From contig JAABSP010000007.1 of assembly GCA_011390345.1 (NCBI GenBank), forward strand, positions 1 through 64,000: DNA of 64,000 nt. Reading direction: 5' to 3'. The DNA is from Desulfobacteraceae bacterium. Its GTDB lineage: Bacteria; Desulfobacterota; Desulfobacteria; Desulfobacterales; JAABSP01. Below, in pieces: positions 54,777 through 63,804 of this stretch (positions within the stretch are counted from its first letter, which is position 1; every line of letters begins with the position of its first letter). The position numbers and the translations under genes were made by a program. Under the pieces are notes generated by a model. It made no database searches and was not told the origin of the DNA. It was given only the letters and a program-made list of their open reading frames with translations.

Positions 54777-55708
54777 TGGGAAAGATCATCAAAATCGGAA
54801 CCCGGGGGAGCAAGCTGGCCCTCTGGCAGGCCCAATGGGTCAAATCTGCGCTGATGAAAAACGACCCCTCCCTCGATGTGGAACTGGTCATCATCAAGAC
54901 CAAAGGGGATAAGATCCAAGATGTTCCCCTGGCCAAGGTCGGCGGCAAGGGGCTCTTTGTCAAGGAGATCGAAGAGGCGATTCTGGATGGCCGGGTGGAT
55001 CTGGCTGTCCACAGTATGAAGGACATGCCGGCCGAGATCCCCCAAGGGCTGACCATCGGCGCGGTTCCCGAGCGGGAGAACCCTTTTGACGTTCTCATCT
55101 CCCGGACCGGAAAGAAGCTCTTCGAGCTTCCGAAAGGCGCGGTCATCGGCACCAGCAGCCTGCGCCGGGGCGCACAGTTGAAGCACCTTCGGCCAGACCT
55201 CGAGATCGTCTCCCTCCGGGGAAATCTGGACACGCGCCTGCGGAAGCTGGAAGAGGAGAATCTGGATGCGGTGATTCTGGCCGCGGCCGGGGTCCGGCGT
55301 ATGGAACTTGCCCATCGGATCACCCAGTATCTGGACGATGCCGAGATGCTGCCGGCCGTGGGGCAGGGGGCTTTATGCATCGAGACCCGCAAAGATGATC
55401 CGGCCATCGGCCCTCGAATCGATGCTCTGAACCATCCCCTCACCCGGACGGCCGTCATGGCCGAGCGGGCATTTCTCCATCGGCTGGAGGGGGGGTGCCA
55501 GGTCCCCATTGCGGCCCACGGAACTATCGAGGGCGATACTCTGCAGATCACCGGACTTGTTGCAGAGCTGGACGGATCTTCGGTGATCCGGGAGACCCTG
55601 TCGGGACCGGCGGCCGATCCCGGAGCCATTGGGCTGGATCTGGCCAACCGCCTGCTTGCCGCAGGGGCAGGCTCCATTCTCGATAAGCTGAAGGCGGTTG
55701 AACTATGA
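54776..55708 (+). CDS. hemC: Hydroxymethylbilane synthase
   Basis: This 310-residue enzyme links four porphobilinogens into hydroxymethylbilane. The start KIGTRGSKLALWQAQWV, the active-site SMKDMP and SLRRGAQL segments, and the cofactor-bearing Cys near residue 240 (EGGCQVPIAAHG) are present. The ATG at 54776 overlaps the fmdB stop. The end overlaps the next gene by 4 bp (ATGA). Together they form a coupled tetrapyrrole operon. Confidence 0.97.
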   Translation: MGKIIKIGTRGSKLALWQAQWVKSALMKNDPSLDVELVIIKTKGDKIQDVPLAKVGGKGLFVKEIEEAILDGRVDLAVHSMKDMPAEIPQGLTIGAVPERENPFDVLISRTGKKLFELPKGAVIGTSSLRRGAQLKHLRPDLEIVSLRGNLDTRLRKLEEENLDAVILAAAGVRRMELAHRITQYLDDAEMLPAVGQGALCIETRKDDPAIGPRIDALNHPLTRTAVMAERAFLHRLEGGCQVPIAAHGTIEGDTLQITGLVAELDGSSVIRETLSGPAADPGAIGLDLANRLLAAGAGSILDKLKAVEL

Positions 55709-57276
55709 GTTCTTTTGGGAGTTCATTTGTGAATTCATCGGGCGAAAACGGCAAAACCGGAAAGGTCTATCTCGTCGGCGCAGGCCCCGGTGATCCGGGA
55801 CTCATCACCGTAAAGGGGCTCTCCTGCATTCAGAAGGCCGATGTGATCATCTACGACTATCTGGCCTCTCCGACACTCCTGAAATATGTCTCCCCGGATG
55901 CCGATGCCATCTATGTAGGAAAAAAGGGCGGAGATCACACCCTCTCCCAGGATGGGATCAACGCTCTCATCGTGGAGAAGGCAAAGACCGGTGCGACCGT
56001 CACCCGGCTCAAGGGCGGAGACCCCTACATCTTCGGCCGGGGCGGCGAAGAGGCCGAGGTGCTGGTCGAAAACAACATCCCCTTCGAGGTCGTGCCCGGC
56101 GTCACCTCTGCGGTCGCGGCCCCGGCCTATGCCGGTATTCCCCTGACCCATCGGGACTTTACCTCGACGCTCGCCTTCATCACCGGCCATGAAGACCCCG
56201 CAAAAGAGGAATCGAGCATCCACTGGGAGCATCTGGCCAAGGGGATCGGAACCCTTGTCTTCTTCATGGGGGTGAAAAACCTTCCCAACATCGTTGCCCG
56301 GCTTACCGAAAACAGCATGGCAGAGGATACACCCGTGGCCCTGGTCCGCTGGGGGACCACAACGGAGCAGGTCACGGTATCCGGAACCCTGGAGAACATT
56401 GTCGAACGGGTGAGGGCCGCGGGAATGAAGGCCCCTGCCATCATCGTGGTGGGAAAAGTGGTGGGGCTTCGAGAGAGGCTCGGTTGGTTCGAGCATCGGC
56501 CCCTGCTGGGAAAGCGGATCATCGTCACCCGGGCCCGGGAGCAGGCCAGCGACCTGGTGGAAAAACTGACCGATCTCGGCGCACACTGCATCGAGTGTCC
56601 GACCATCAAAGTCGTTCCCCCGAATGACTGGTCTCTTCTGGATGAAGCCATCCGTAACCTTGCCGATTACGACTGGATCGTCTTCACCAGTGTCAACGGT
56701 GTCCGCTTCTTCTTTGACCGCCTCTTTGAGACCGGATTCGACGCCCGTGCCTTTGGGGGCCTCCGGACCGCGGCCATCGGCCCGGCCACCGCAGGGCGGC
56801 TTTTCGATTTCGGCATCAGAACCGATATCATCCCAGAAACCTTTCGGGCCGAATCGGTGGTTGCGGCATTTGAAAAGGAAGAGATCGCGGGAAAAAAGGT
56901 GCTGCTACCCCGCGCGGCCGAGGCAAGACCTGTGCTGCCCGTGGAACTCCGGAAGATGGGCGCGGCCGTGGATGAGATCATCACCTACCATACCGATCCG
57001 GACACCAGCGGAAGGGAGACCTTGCTCCGGGAATTGGAGGCGGGCCGGGTGGATCTGGTGACCTTCACCAGCTCTTCAACCGTGCGGAATTTCAAATCTC
57101 TTCTTCCTGAAGATGAGGATCTGGCCGGGCTCATGAAAGGCGTTACCGTGGCCTGCATCGGCCCGATCACCGCAGAGACCGCTCAAGAACTCGGTTTTGA
57201 TGTGCATCTGGTGGCAAAAACCTATACCATTGACGGATTGTGCAGCGAGATCAATCAATACTTTCAAAAGGATTGA
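55705..57276 (+). CDS. cobA/hemD: Uroporphyrinogen-III methyltransferase/synthase fusion
   Basis: This 523-residue two-domain enzyme has an SUMT methyltransferase in residues about 18-260 (VYLVGAGPGDPGLITVKG, RLKGGDPYIFGRGGEE) that makes precorrin-2. Residues about 265-520 are HemD uroporphyrinogen-III synthase (RIIVTRAREQASDL, VFTSVNGVRFF, TSSSTVRNF). The fusion closes hydroxymethylbilane to uroporphyrinogen III and steers it to sirohaem, cobalamin or the alternative haem route; it is common in Desulfobacterota and Firmicutes. It overlaps hemC by 4 bp. Confidence 0.96.
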   Translation: MSSFGSSFVNSSGENGKTGKVYLVGAGPGDPGLITVKGLSCIQKADVIIYDYLASPTLLKYVSPDADAIYVGKKGGDHTLSQDGINALIVEKAKTGATVTRLKGGDPYIFGRGGEEAEVLVENNIPFEVVPGVTSAVAAPAYAGIPLTHRDFTSTLAFITGHEDPAKEESSIHWEHLAKGIGTLVFFMGVKNLPNIVARLTENSMAEDTPVALVRWGTTTEQVTVSGTLENIVERVRAAGMKAPAIIVVGKVVGLRERLGWFEHRPLLGKRIIVTRAREQASDLVEKLTDLGAHCIECPTIKVVPPNDWSLLDEAIRNLADYDWIVFTSVNGVRFFFDRLFETGFDARAFGGLRTAAIGPATAGRLFDFGIRTDIIPETFRAESVVAAFEKEEIAGKKVLLPRAAEARPVLPVELRKMGAAVDEIITYHTDPDTSGRETLLRELEAGRVDLVTFTSSSTVRNFKSLLPEDEDLAGLMKGVTVACIGPITAETAQELGFDVHLVAKTYTIDGLCSEINQYFQKD

Positions 57277-59667: not shown

Positions 59668-61353
59668 ATGATCATCGGGCTGGATGTGGGCGGTACGCAT
59701 ACGGATGTGGTTCTGCTGGGAAAAGATGGGCTGATCCGGGAGGTCAAGGTCGCAACCGATACCGCGGCGCTTTTCGATGCGGTGCTGAGCGGTATCGAGA
59801 AGATCACCGAGGGCATCGATCCGGAGGATATCCATCGGGTGGTGTTGAGTACCACTTTGACCACCAATGCCATTGTTCAGGGAAAAAATCCAGAGGTGGG
59901 GATGATCGTGGCCTCGGGCCCCGGCATCGATCCGGAACTCTTTCGGACCAATCCCCACTACTATGCGGTCTCGGGCGCGATGGATCACCGGGGGCGGGAG
60001 ACCGAACCGGTTGACAGGGACGAGATCGCGGGGATTGCCAAAAAGCTCGAGGAGGCCGGCATCCGTAATGTGGGGATTGTGGGCAAGTTCTCCACCCGGA
60101 ATCCGAGCCATGAACTGGCCATCCATGAACAGCTCAAGCCCGATTTCGGCAAGATGTTCATGGGGCATCAGATCTCCGGCAATCTCAACTTCCCCCGGCG
60201 GATCGCCACAACCTTTTTAAATGCCACTGTCAGGCCCATCCACAGAAAATTCTACGAGGCAGTGCAAAATTCCCTTGCAGACAAAGGGCTTGCAGTTCCC
60301 ATCCATGTACTCAAGGCAGACGGCGGGACCATGAGCTTTGAGGCCTCCCTCGATTTTCCCGCGCAGAGCATCCTTTCAGGCCCGGCCGCCAGCGTCATGG
60401 GCGCGATCGGATTTGCGCCGAAAAAGGGAGACTGCCTGGTGCTCGATATAGGCGGAACCACCACGGATATGGCCGTGCTCACCGACGGGGTTCCCCTGCT
60501 CGACCCGCTGGGCATCACCCTGGGGGAGCACAAGACCCTTATTCGTTCATTGGAGACCCGCTCCATCGGCATCGGCGGCGACAGCGCGGTCTCGGTGGAA
60601 AATGGGGAATTGAAGATCGGCCCGGGACGTCTGGGGCCAGCAATGGCCTTCGGCGGAAGAAATCCCACGCCCACCGATGCGGTTCTCGTGCTGGGGCTTA
60701 TGGAGAACGGTGATAAAGACGCCGCACGGAAGGGAATTCAAACGATTGCAGATGTGCTTTCGATCTCATTGGAGGAGGCCGCAACCCGGATCTTCGACGG
60801 GGCCTGCGACCGGATACTGAAGAGCGCAGGAGAGATGATCGACATGATCAACAGCAAGCCGGTCTATACCATCCATGAGCTTCAGGAGGGATTGACGGTG
60901 AAGCCGGAGAAGATCCTGATTCTCGGCGGCCCTGCCCCCGATTTTGCCCGCCGCCTTTCCCAGCGCAGCACCTATGAGGTCCAAGTGGTTCCCCGATGGC
61001 ATGTGGCCAATGCCATCGGCGCGGCCCTTGCCCGGACTACCTGCGAGGTGACGCTCTTCGGCGATACCCAGCGGGGGATTTCGGCAGCGCCCGAAGAGGG
61101 CTTCGAAGAAGCGGTGAAAAAGGATTTCTCCAAAGAACTTGCTGTGAAAAAGGCATTTGAGCTGCTGAAGAACAAGGCGGTCCGGATCGGGGCATCCGAA
61201 GACGATCTCGCGATGGAAGTGGTGGAGGAGATGCAGTTCAACATGGTGCAGGGCTTTTACACCACGGGCCGGAACATCCGGGTGAAGGTGCAGGTCAAGC
61301 CGGGGCTGATCCACGGTTATGAAACGATCATCAGCTCTCTTTCCGTCGGTTGA
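59668..61353 (+). CDS. Hydantoinase/oxoprolinase family protein
   Basis: This 561-residue protein is of the HyuA/ASKHA group. The phosphate-loop motif MIIGLDVGGTHTDVVL opens the protein, a second nucleotide motif VLDIGGTTTDMAVL lies near 255, and the typical LSGPAASVMGA follows the hydantoinase N-terminal domain. Related enzymes use ATP to open cyclic amides or carboxylate ketones such as acetone; the true substrate here cannot be told. It is shorter than HyuA of about 700 residues, and no HyuB partner lies beside it, so an alternative activity is likely. It has its own promoter. Confidence 0.85.
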   Translation: MIIGLDVGGTHTDVVLLGKDGLIREVKVATDTAALFDAVLSGIEKITEGIDPEDIHRVVLSTTLTTNAIVQGKNPEVGMIVASGPGIDPELFRTNPHYYAVSGAMDHRGRETEPVDRDEIAGIAKKLEEAGIRNVGIVGKFSTRNPSHELAIHEQLKPDFGKMFMGHQISGNLNFPRRIATTFLNATVRPIHRKFYEAVQNSLADKGLAVPIHVLKADGGTMSFEASLDFPAQSILSGPAASVMGAIGFAPKKGDCLVLDIGGTTTDMAVLTDGVPLLDPLGITLGEHKTLIRSLETRSIGIGGDSAVSVENGELKIGPGRLGPAMAFGGRNPTPTDAVLVLGLMENGDKDAARKGIQTIADVLSISLEEAATRIFDGACDRILKSAGEMIDMINSKPVYTIHELQEGLTVKPEKILILGGPAPDFARRLSQRSTYEVQVVPRWHVANAIGAALARTTCEVTLFGDTQRGISAAPEEGFEEAVKKDFSKELAVKKAFELLKNKAVRIGASEDDLAMEVVEEMQFNMVQGFYTTGRNIRVKVQVKPGLIHGYETIISSLSVG

Positions 61354-61404: not shown

Positions 61405-61641
61405 TCAAGCCTCTTTGTCATGTCCCCTCGTCAGGGCCATGATCTCGTCCGTTGTCATGTCAACAGTGGCCAGCCCCCGCAGTTTCGAAAATTTTCCACG
61501 GATGTTCTCCTTTCCCCTGCGCTTGACCAGATAAACCCGGTCATCTTCCTCGATGAAATCGATTTCCGTGTATGGGGTTATTCCCAGTTTCCGGCGAATG
61601 TTCTGGGGGATAGTGACTTGACCTTTTATGGTGACTTTCAT
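61405..61641 (-). CDS. AbrB/MazE-type antitoxin-like DNA-binding protein, orphan
   Basis: This 78-residue protein has an N-terminal swapped-hairpin AbrB domain (VTIKGQVTIPQNIRRKLGI) and a C-terminal acidic tail of the type that blocks PIN toxins (DMTTDEIMALTRG). Normally a PIN toxin gene follows at once. Here only about 50 bp separate its stop from the end of the hydantoinase gene, which reads the other way, and no PIN sequence is recognisable, so the toxin seems lost. It may now act only as a small regulator. Confidence 0.85.
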   Translation of the reverse strand: MKVTIKGQVTIPQNIRRKLGITPYTEIDFIEEDDRVYLVKRRGKENIRGKFSKLRGLATVDMTTDEIMALTRGHDKEA

Positions 61642-61767: not shown

Positions 61768-62241
61768 ATGAGCATATCATCTTTCAGGCTCAGGGATAAC
61801 GGGGCGGCCGAAAAATGTTTCGAGGATCGCTTCAGGAAATTTTTTCTGCTGAATGCAAAGGGCGGCAGCGGAGAAAGGGGCGGCGCTTCCGGGGCCGCGC
61901 CCGATCCCGGAACACAGGACAAAACCGATCTCGAAGCGGAAAAGGCCATCCGCTGCGGCGCCTGCCGCCATGAGATCACCACCGCAGACCGGATCATCTC
62001 CGTCAACGGGGGCCATATACATACCTTTGCCAATCCCGGGGGCTTTGTCTTCGACATCGGCTGCTTTTCCGATGCCCCGGGCTGTATGAACCGGGGAGAC
62101 TTCACCTCGGAGTTCACCTGGTTTGCCGGCTACAGTTGGCGCTTCTCTCTCTGTTCGAGCTGCTACGCCCATCTGGGCTGGCAGTATCAGGGAAAGGAAT
62201 ACGGTTTTTACGGGCTGATTCTGGCCAATCTGATCCAGTAG
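61768..62241 (+). CDS. CULT domain (cereblon-like) protein
   Basis: This 157-residue protein has a C-terminal 95 residues forming a CULT domain, the thalidomide-binding fold of eukaryotic cereblon. Zinc cysteines C63, C66, C129 and C132 and the three cage tryptophans W118, W124 and W138 (TWFAGYSWRF, HLGWQY) are all present. The spacing from the second tryptophan to the last cysteine pair and third tryptophan equals that in human cereblon. The first 60 residues are a charged, Gly-rich tail with no known domain. Bacterial CULT proteins are known but their natural ligand is not. The ribosome binding site is poor, so the start could be later. Confidence 0.88.
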   Translation: MSISSFRLRDNGAAEKCFEDRFRKFFLLNAKGGSGERGGASGAAPDPGTQDKTDLEAEKAIRCGACRHEITTADRIISVNGGHIHTFANPGGFVFDIGCFSDAPGCMNRGDFTSEFTWFAGYSWRFSLCSSCYAHLGWQYQGKEYGFYGLILANLIQ

Positions 62242-62301: not shown

Positions 62302-63804
62302 GTGCTGCATCTGCAAAGCGCCGATCTGAGCAAGGAAAAGGTAGAGACCCTGGTGATTCCGGTCTGCGAGGACAAGGAGATTCACGAGGATAAAGTCATT
62401 ACCGGGCTGATCCGCCGGGCAAAGAAGATCAAAACCTTCAAGGGAGAAAAAGATGATGAGCTGATCTTCTATTCCGATGAGAAGGTATCGGCCGATCAGA
62501 TCATCTTCAAGGGGATCGGAAAGGCTGAAAAGCTCGATCCGGAAGCCTTCCGGGCCCTCTGTGGAAAGGCGGTTCAGGGGCTGGTGAAACAGAAGATCAA
62601 AGAGGTTCTCTTTGCGGTTCCCTCCGCGAAAAAGTGCGGCTTGGACCCGGAGGCGCTGACAACGGCCATGATGGAAGGGGCATTTCTGGGCAACCATGTC
62701 TTTGACCGGTACAAGAAGGAGAAAAAGGAGAGGCCGGTCGAAAAAATCGAATTCCTGGTCAAGGCCGATCTTGAAAAAAAGCTCGCCGATCTGCCCCGGC
62801 GGATAGAGACGATCTGTGCCGGAACGGTCATGGCAAGGGAGTGGATCTCCATGCCCTCCAACCACAAGACCCCGGATCAATTTGCCCACGAGATCGCTAA
62901 ACAGGCAGAAGAGACCGATCTTCAGGTGACGGTGCTGGATGAAAAGGCACTGGAAGAGAAGGGCTTCGGCGCACTCCTTGCGGTCGGGGCCGGCAGTCTG
63001 CGGCCCCCGCGGCTGGTGATCCTCGACTATGCGCCCAAAGGAGCCGAAAAGACCATCGCGATCGTCGGCAAAGGCGTCACCTTCGATTCCGGGGGGCTGG
63101 ACATCAAATCCAGAGACGGCATGGAGACTATGAAGAGCGATATGTCCGGGGCCGCGGCCGTGGGCGCTGCGCTCATCACTCTATCAAATCTCGGGCCGGC
63201 AAATCTCGGGCTGGCAAAGATCGGGGCTTCGGACAAGCGGATCATCGGCATTCTTCCCCTCGCGGAGAACATGCCCTCGGGAGGCGCAGCCCGGCCCGGT
63301 GACATCATCTGCACCTATTCCGGAAAGACCGTGGAGATCGGCAACACCGACGCGGAGGGCCGCCTCATCCTGGCCGACGCGATCGCCTATGCCGTGGAAA
63401 CCTACAAGCCCGATGCACTCATCGACATGGCCACCCTTACCGGGGCCTGTCTCATGGCACTGGGGGAGAAGATCGCGGCCGTCTTCTCCTTTGAAGACGA
63501 ATTGCCCCAAAAAATTCTCGAGTCCGCAGACAAGACCCATGAGCGGTGCTGGCGCATGCCCCTGCCCGAGGATTACAAAGAACTGCTGAAGAGCGAGTTT
63601 GCCGATATCAACAATATGCCCAACAGCCCCTGGGGCGGCGCGATCACCGCGGCCCTCTTTCTTTCCGAGTTCGTTGGCGAGACCCGATGGGCTCATATCG
63701 ACATCGCAGGGCCTTCCTACTCGAAAAAGAAGGACGCGTATGCGGGCCCCGGCGGAAAGGGCTTTGGAGTGCGCCTGCTCTGTGATCTCATGGAGCAGCT
63801 TTAA
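62302..63804 (+). CDS. pepA: Leucyl aminopeptidase (M17)
   Basis: This 500-residue cytosolic aminopeptidase is of standard length. Metal-site motifs KGVTFDSGGLDIKS (near 255-268) and NTDAEGRLILADA (near 348) are intact, as is the closing GPSYSKKKDAYAGPGGKGFGVRLL. It removes N-terminal residues from peptides as a hexamer; in E. coli it can also bind DNA. The start is GTG 62302, preceded by AAAGGAAA. It lies 60 bp after the CULT gene in the same direction and may be co-transcribed with it. Confidence 0.95.
   Translation: MLHLQSADLSKEKVETLVIPVCEDKEIHEDKVITGLIRRAKKIKTFKGEKDDELIFYSDEKVSADQIIFKGIGKAEKLDPEAFRALCGKAVQGLVKQKIKEVLFAVPSAKKCGLDPEALTTAMMEGAFLGNHVFDRYKKEKKERPVEKIEFLVKADLEKKLADLPRRIETICAGTVMAREWISMPSNHKTPDQFAHEIAKQAEETDLQVTVLDEKALEEKGFGALLAVGAGSLRPPRLVILDYAPKGAEKTIAIVGKGVTFDSGGLDIKSRDGMETMKSDMSGAAAVGAALITLSNLGPANLGLAKIGASDKRIIGILPLAENMPSGGAARPGDIICTYSGKTVEIGNTDAEGRLILADAIAYAVETYKPDALIDMATLTGACLMALGEKIAAVFSFEDELPQKILESADKTHERCWRMPLPEDYKELLKSEFADINNMPNSPWGGAITAALFLSEFVGETRWAHIDIAGPSYSKKKDAYAGPGGKGFGVRLLCDLMEQL

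Follow-up and report, generated by a model that had tools for sequence, protein, structure and literature searches.

No ligase is used more in targeted protein degradation than cereblon, and in the human protein a LON domain is paired with the CULT domain. The CULT family itself has been known since 2015, and its bacterial members were described as the domain and nothing else (Lupas et al., 2015). One of them, MsCI4 of Magnetospirillum, binds glutarimides in crystals, in a pocket that is shaped by Glu76, Phe77, Pro51 and Tyr101 (PMC8900816). The degron of cereblon was established to be a C-terminal cyclic imide (PMC11974815, PMC12117711). Here, a CULT protein is described that is encoded in a stretch of 64,000 nucleotides (the window) from a Desulfobacteraceae bacterium, together with a sister clade of CULT proteins, termed CULT-D, that is found beside a Lon-type protease.

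The open reading frame is present as the preliminary description had it and is a single copy in the 4.8 Mb source genome (Table 1). A phmmer search of solved structures gave E 4.6e-22 for MsCI4 and about 1e-9 for human cereblon; Pfam returned Yippee-Mis18 alone, at E 0.03 and below the cut-off, thus the protein would be missed by Pfam alone. In the AlphaFold2 model the CULT domain (residues 61-157) reaches pLDDT of 85-98, and Foldseek places it at 1.2 Å from thalidomide-bound MsCI4 (4v2y) over 100 residues, with 39% identity and E of about 1e-10; the model is also close to the deoxyuridine complex of MsCI4. The homology to the CULT family is far beyond chance and the window protein is a genuine, typical member of it (Lupas et al., 2015). 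These searches, the model and the kept pocket residues bear out the earlier view of a cereblon-like protein with a complete cage.

Table 1. Coordinates of the described features (window positions, unless a locus is named).
Feature	Position	Strand	Basis or remark
CULT protein ORF	61768..62241	+	157 aa, ATG at 61768, stop at 62241
N-terminal tail	61768..61944	+	predicted disordered; pLDDT means 46-61, no strand (AlphaFold2)
Likely true start: AGGA 61834-61837 + CTG 61846-61848	61834..61848	+	inferred from alignment to orthologue starts
CULT domain, residues 60-157	61945..62238	+	predicted beta-tent fold with zinc site and Trp cage (AlphaFold2, Foldseek)
First zinc CxxC, C63 + C66	61954..61965	+	invariant in alignment A2
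Second zinc CxxC, C129 + C132	62152..62163	+	invariant in alignment A2
Cage Trp W118 (human W380, MsCI4 W79)	62119..62121	+	alignment
Cage Trp W124 (human W386, MsCI4 W85)	62137..62139	+	alignment
Cage Trp W138 (human W400, MsCI4 W99)	62179..62181	+	alignment
Leucyl aminopeptidase pepA (M17)	62302..63804	+	Pfam E 1.6e-116; NCBIfam NF002073 above cut-off
Hydantoinase/oxoprolinase (HyuA-type), upstream of CULT	59668..61353	+	Pfam E 1.4e-44
MazE/AbrB-type antitoxin-like gene, between hyuA and CULT	61405..61641	-	Pfam MazE_antitoxin E 6e-7
CULT-D/LonB/BFN blocks	L148:8744-12581, L149:8279-12419, L159:4929-8408		
CULT-D/LonB/BFN blocks	L160:3414-6712, L161:1921-5569		

The four zinc cysteines and three cage tryptophans are kept with the spacing of human cereblon, whose sequence was verified against PDB chains. 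The tryptophan offsets, +6 and +14, are those of human W380/W386/W400, as had been stated, except that the residues in between number five and thirteen and not six and fourteen. Further equivalents of the MsCI4 pocket are E115 (Glu76), F116 (Phe77), P90 (Pro51) and Y140, two residues past W138 (Tyr101); N89-P90 is also part of the complete pocket. The alignment A2 comprises 30 sequences, and the invariance of EFTWFAGY within it is inflated, since the same stretch seeded the search for relatives. As the pocket is the same as that of MsCI4, the residues argue strongly that the window protein would bind glutarimides and other cyclic imides.

The preliminary description also gave the protein an extra N-terminal tail of 60 residues. 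This length depends on ATG 61768 being the start, which leaves 62 residues before the first zinc cysteine and is preceded by no visible Shine-Dalgarno sequence. The real start is probably the CTG that lies eight bases past an AGGA and aligns with the codon at which the nearest same-family orthologues start (MLLAKG, MLEAKN), so that the tail would have about 36 residues to the first cysteine. Moreover, disordered N-terminal tails are the rule among CULT relatives, thus the window tail is not distinctive. In 81 window-type relatives (below 75% domain identity) the tails contain a motif that recurs in approximately the form hydrophobic-[LFY]-[FL]-R-x-P-[SA]-[DE], with log-likelihood of 262 against 138-153 in 12 shuffles; it lies 18-48 residues (median 28) before the first cysteine and can be seen, e.g., in L018 (residues 9-18), L218, L140 and L097. 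Among the 39 sequences below 55% domain identity the signal is modest (151, against 121.7 ± 4.3 when shuffled and 124-143 for unrelated N-termini). The window's version, FFLLNAKGG, is degenerate, with a score of 4.6 against 7-12 in good cases. Both tails are disordered in the models of the window protein and L018, and the motif is left unpacked.

Of 46 good genomes sampled from the order of the window, 31 contain CULT; across the phylum the figure is 28 of 245. CULT-D forms a distinct sister clade (16 tree rows, SH-aLRT 99), in which the tail motif was not found. Six CULT-D genomes belong to the class of G187, and all six contain a second, type-2 LonB, composed of AAA_32, LonB lid, LonC helical and Lon_C domains. 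Outside family f122 this protease is present in 11 of 67 genomes, and the hypergeometric value for its co-occurrence with CULT-D is 4.6e-6 (0.006 within family f91), although both values overstate independence, the genomes being related. In five of the six genomes CULT-D adjoins LonB and a gene for a bifunctional nuclease (BFN), and the order of the genes is of two kinds: CULT-LonB-BFN in G187, G344 and G419 (gaps of about 87, 444 and 13 bases, respectively) and LonB-BFN-CULT in G415 and G416. The congener of G187, G405, whose LonB is 88.6% identical, has a metallo-lactamase-LonB-BFN block that is intact without CULT (L225:1645-5295). Taken with the five CULT-bearing blocks, this makes CULT-D look like an optional accessory of the LonB-BFN operon. 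A literature search in open-access papers found no description of a CULT-LonB-BFN operon, and the association is apparently undescribed; it constitutes a valuable lead. In family f117, of another class, CULT-D stands beside yifB/comM and dsbD, with LonB elsewhere. In the class of G190 co-occurrence is uninformative, since LonB is present in 55 of 56 genomes, and the same holds for isoaspartyl methyltransferase (PCMT), which all 58 of 58 relatives contain. No CULT-D was found in viral contigs.

We consider it somewhat probable, taking the explanation as a whole, that CULT is a reader of cyclic imides on damaged proteins which may feed proteolysis. The window protein would be a small, probably cytosolic, non-enzymatic reader, in which the zinc-pinned CULT domain, with the cage and fold that sequence and model indicate, would hold cyclic-imide, lactam or uracil-type rings between three tryptophans. 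By analogy with human cereblon, the likeliest natural ligand would be a C-terminal cyclic imide on damaged or cleaved proteins. As to what the reading may serve, the handing of damaged proteins to an AAA+ protease is the most likely use, put forward here tentatively. In CULT-D delivery would be direct, through the operon partnership with LonB, and in the window's clade it may perhaps proceed via the disordered N-terminal tail, in the manner in which SspB tethers to ClpX. The CULT-D operons with a Lon-type protease suggest that CULT may single out damaged proteins for degradation, and a function as protease adaptor is plausible, with gene context pointing to the delivery step. They also lend indirect support to the binding of degradation products, an idea raised in the preliminary description. 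Four LonA-type proteases and a ClpX that includes the zinc domain are encoded in the window genome, so that a candidate AAA+ partner is available there; LonB is discarded as a partner in this organism, since no AAA_32 match was found in its genome. The LonA-type proteases (G000 C60, C156, C12 and C5) have 805-838 aa. The absence of AAA_32 LonB from the window genome speaks against the adaptor reading, as do the degenerate window motif, the modest motif signal among the more divergent relatives, the unrelated neighbours of most CULT genes and the f117 CULT-D that stands apart from LonB. It is rather unlikely, though conceivable, that bacterial CULT proteins are protease adaptors in a ubiquitin-free cyclic-imide degron pathway, in which CULT would recognise the C-terminal imide and pass the protein on to Lon/Clp-type AAA+ proteases.

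CULT might instead be a small-molecule sensor or buffer, with a cage that binds free uracil, dihydrouracil, hydantoin and lactams and with no link to proteolysis; we regard this as possible, if rather doubtful. MsCI4 crystals contain deoxyuridine and valerolactam (4v31, 5ohb), and in a census of 92 non-redundant CULT loci the neighbours are mostly unrelated and differ widely. The hydantoinase/oxoprolinase gene upstream in the window is a tempting imide-related partner as well, but cross-locus comparison found no homologue of it at any other CULT locus, and it was set aside as unique to the window genome. Furthermore, an output domain is absent from the CULT protein, and the linkage of CULT-D to LonB would be left unexplained. 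The neighbours that do recur are lineage-specific: cobA-hemD at 11 loci, elongation factor G at 7, an EI24-like membrane protein at 6 and pepA at 4. cobA-hemD lies 25-340 bases upstream of CULT in about 11 loci (11-12; including L003, L004, L005, L006, L007, L028, L134, L135, L137 and L139). As a functional partner it was rejected and taken for one-lineage synteny, since it has no apparent link to imides and is not nearby in same-family relatives of the window. In the window itself hemC and cobA-hemD lie at 55705-57276, 4.5 kb upstream of CULT. The space between the MazE/AbrB-type gene and hyuA is too small for the usual toxin partner. Long upstream frames at L117, L121 and L032, considered as CULT-LON fusions, look like out-of-frame readings of neighbours, and no LON domain is recognisable in them by eye. 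Some CULT copies contain in-frame stops and are thus decaying (G211 C149, G528 C114). In the tree, the CULT domain of human cereblon groups weakly (SH-aLRT 82-88) with two Myxococcota sequences, L031 and L032.

Joint processing of blocked or damaged peptides by CULT and PepA is improbable. The preliminary description took the neighbouring aminopeptidase gene as a hint of peptide or degradation-product binding, which is a weak argument. The gene is indeed next door, on the same strand and after a gap of 60 bases, and a CULT-(HAD)-pepA-trkA-trkH-coaX block is common to the window and to G002 and G003, two genomes of the same family. Upstream of CULT in G003, and also in same-family G001, stands a DJ-1/PfpI gene whose end shares eight bases with the CULT start (L064:8823-9777, L065:9316-10315), and both the DJ-1/PfpI and CULT families are tied to damage control. 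One further locus, from another family, has pepA upstream of CULT at a distance of about 1.1 kb. However, pepA is missing near CULT in 88 of the 92 loci, and when the recurrence of the linkage is followed it proves to be the local synteny of one taxonomic family (three of the four loci) plus one stray case, which gives no support for a general CULT-PepA function. PepA also works from the N-terminus, while the degron known for CULT lies at the C-terminus. Aromatic cages of other proteins bind methyl-lysine, but a housekeeping zinc beta-tent protein, with a cage unrelated to imides that holds, e.g., methylated or cationic groups, is likewise improbable here. That bacterial CULT was assigned no function (PMC4287342) would agree with such a role, but no binding of choline, carnitine or betaine was seen in the MsCI4 system (PMC4287342), and the entire pocket is conserved, beyond the tryptophans.

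For the bacterial role of a domain that is common in Desulfobacterota, the CULT-LonB-BFN operons offer a concrete and genetically simple hypothesis, namely that a Lon-type protease would deal with cyclic-imide damage in a ubiquitin-independent manner. Should this be true, the cereblon degron would predate eukaryotes, and a bacterial degrader handle would be open to probing with thalidomide analogues. If the adaptor reading holds, the eukaryotic LON-CULT pairing would echo a bacterial partnership of CULT and Lon.

With MsCI4 (MGR_0879 of Magnetospirillum gryphiswaldense, 4v2y) the window protein shares the fold, the zinc site, the three tryptophans, the Phe/Glu/Tyr pocket residues and the form of a free-standing single domain; the two are 39% identical (Foldseek), and the N-terminal stretch of MsCI4 is shorter. 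The cage, the zinc site and the tryptophan offsets are also common to human cereblon, in which His378 and Phe402 correspond to Phe and Tyr of the window protein, whereas the LON domain (Pfam found none in the 157 aa) and the DDB1-binding region are absent from the latter. CULT-D proteins (L148, L149, L159, L160, L161) have the domain, cage and zinc site of the window protein, but contain E-H-[TS]-W, like human cereblon, in place of E-F-T-W, have a short N-terminus and adjoin AAA_32 LonB, a protease that is missing from the window genome. SspB, a tethering adaptor of ClpXP that binds the zinc domain of ClpX through its C-terminal peptide (PMC12373786), offers a mechanistic analogy and not a family membership. 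It likewise joins a small degron-binding domain to a disordered linker, and a short terminal hydrophobic-basic peptide, a candidate counterpart of that of SspB, is present in many CULT relatives, in a degenerate version in the window protein. SspB differs in that it has no homology to CULT, whose tail is N-terminal.
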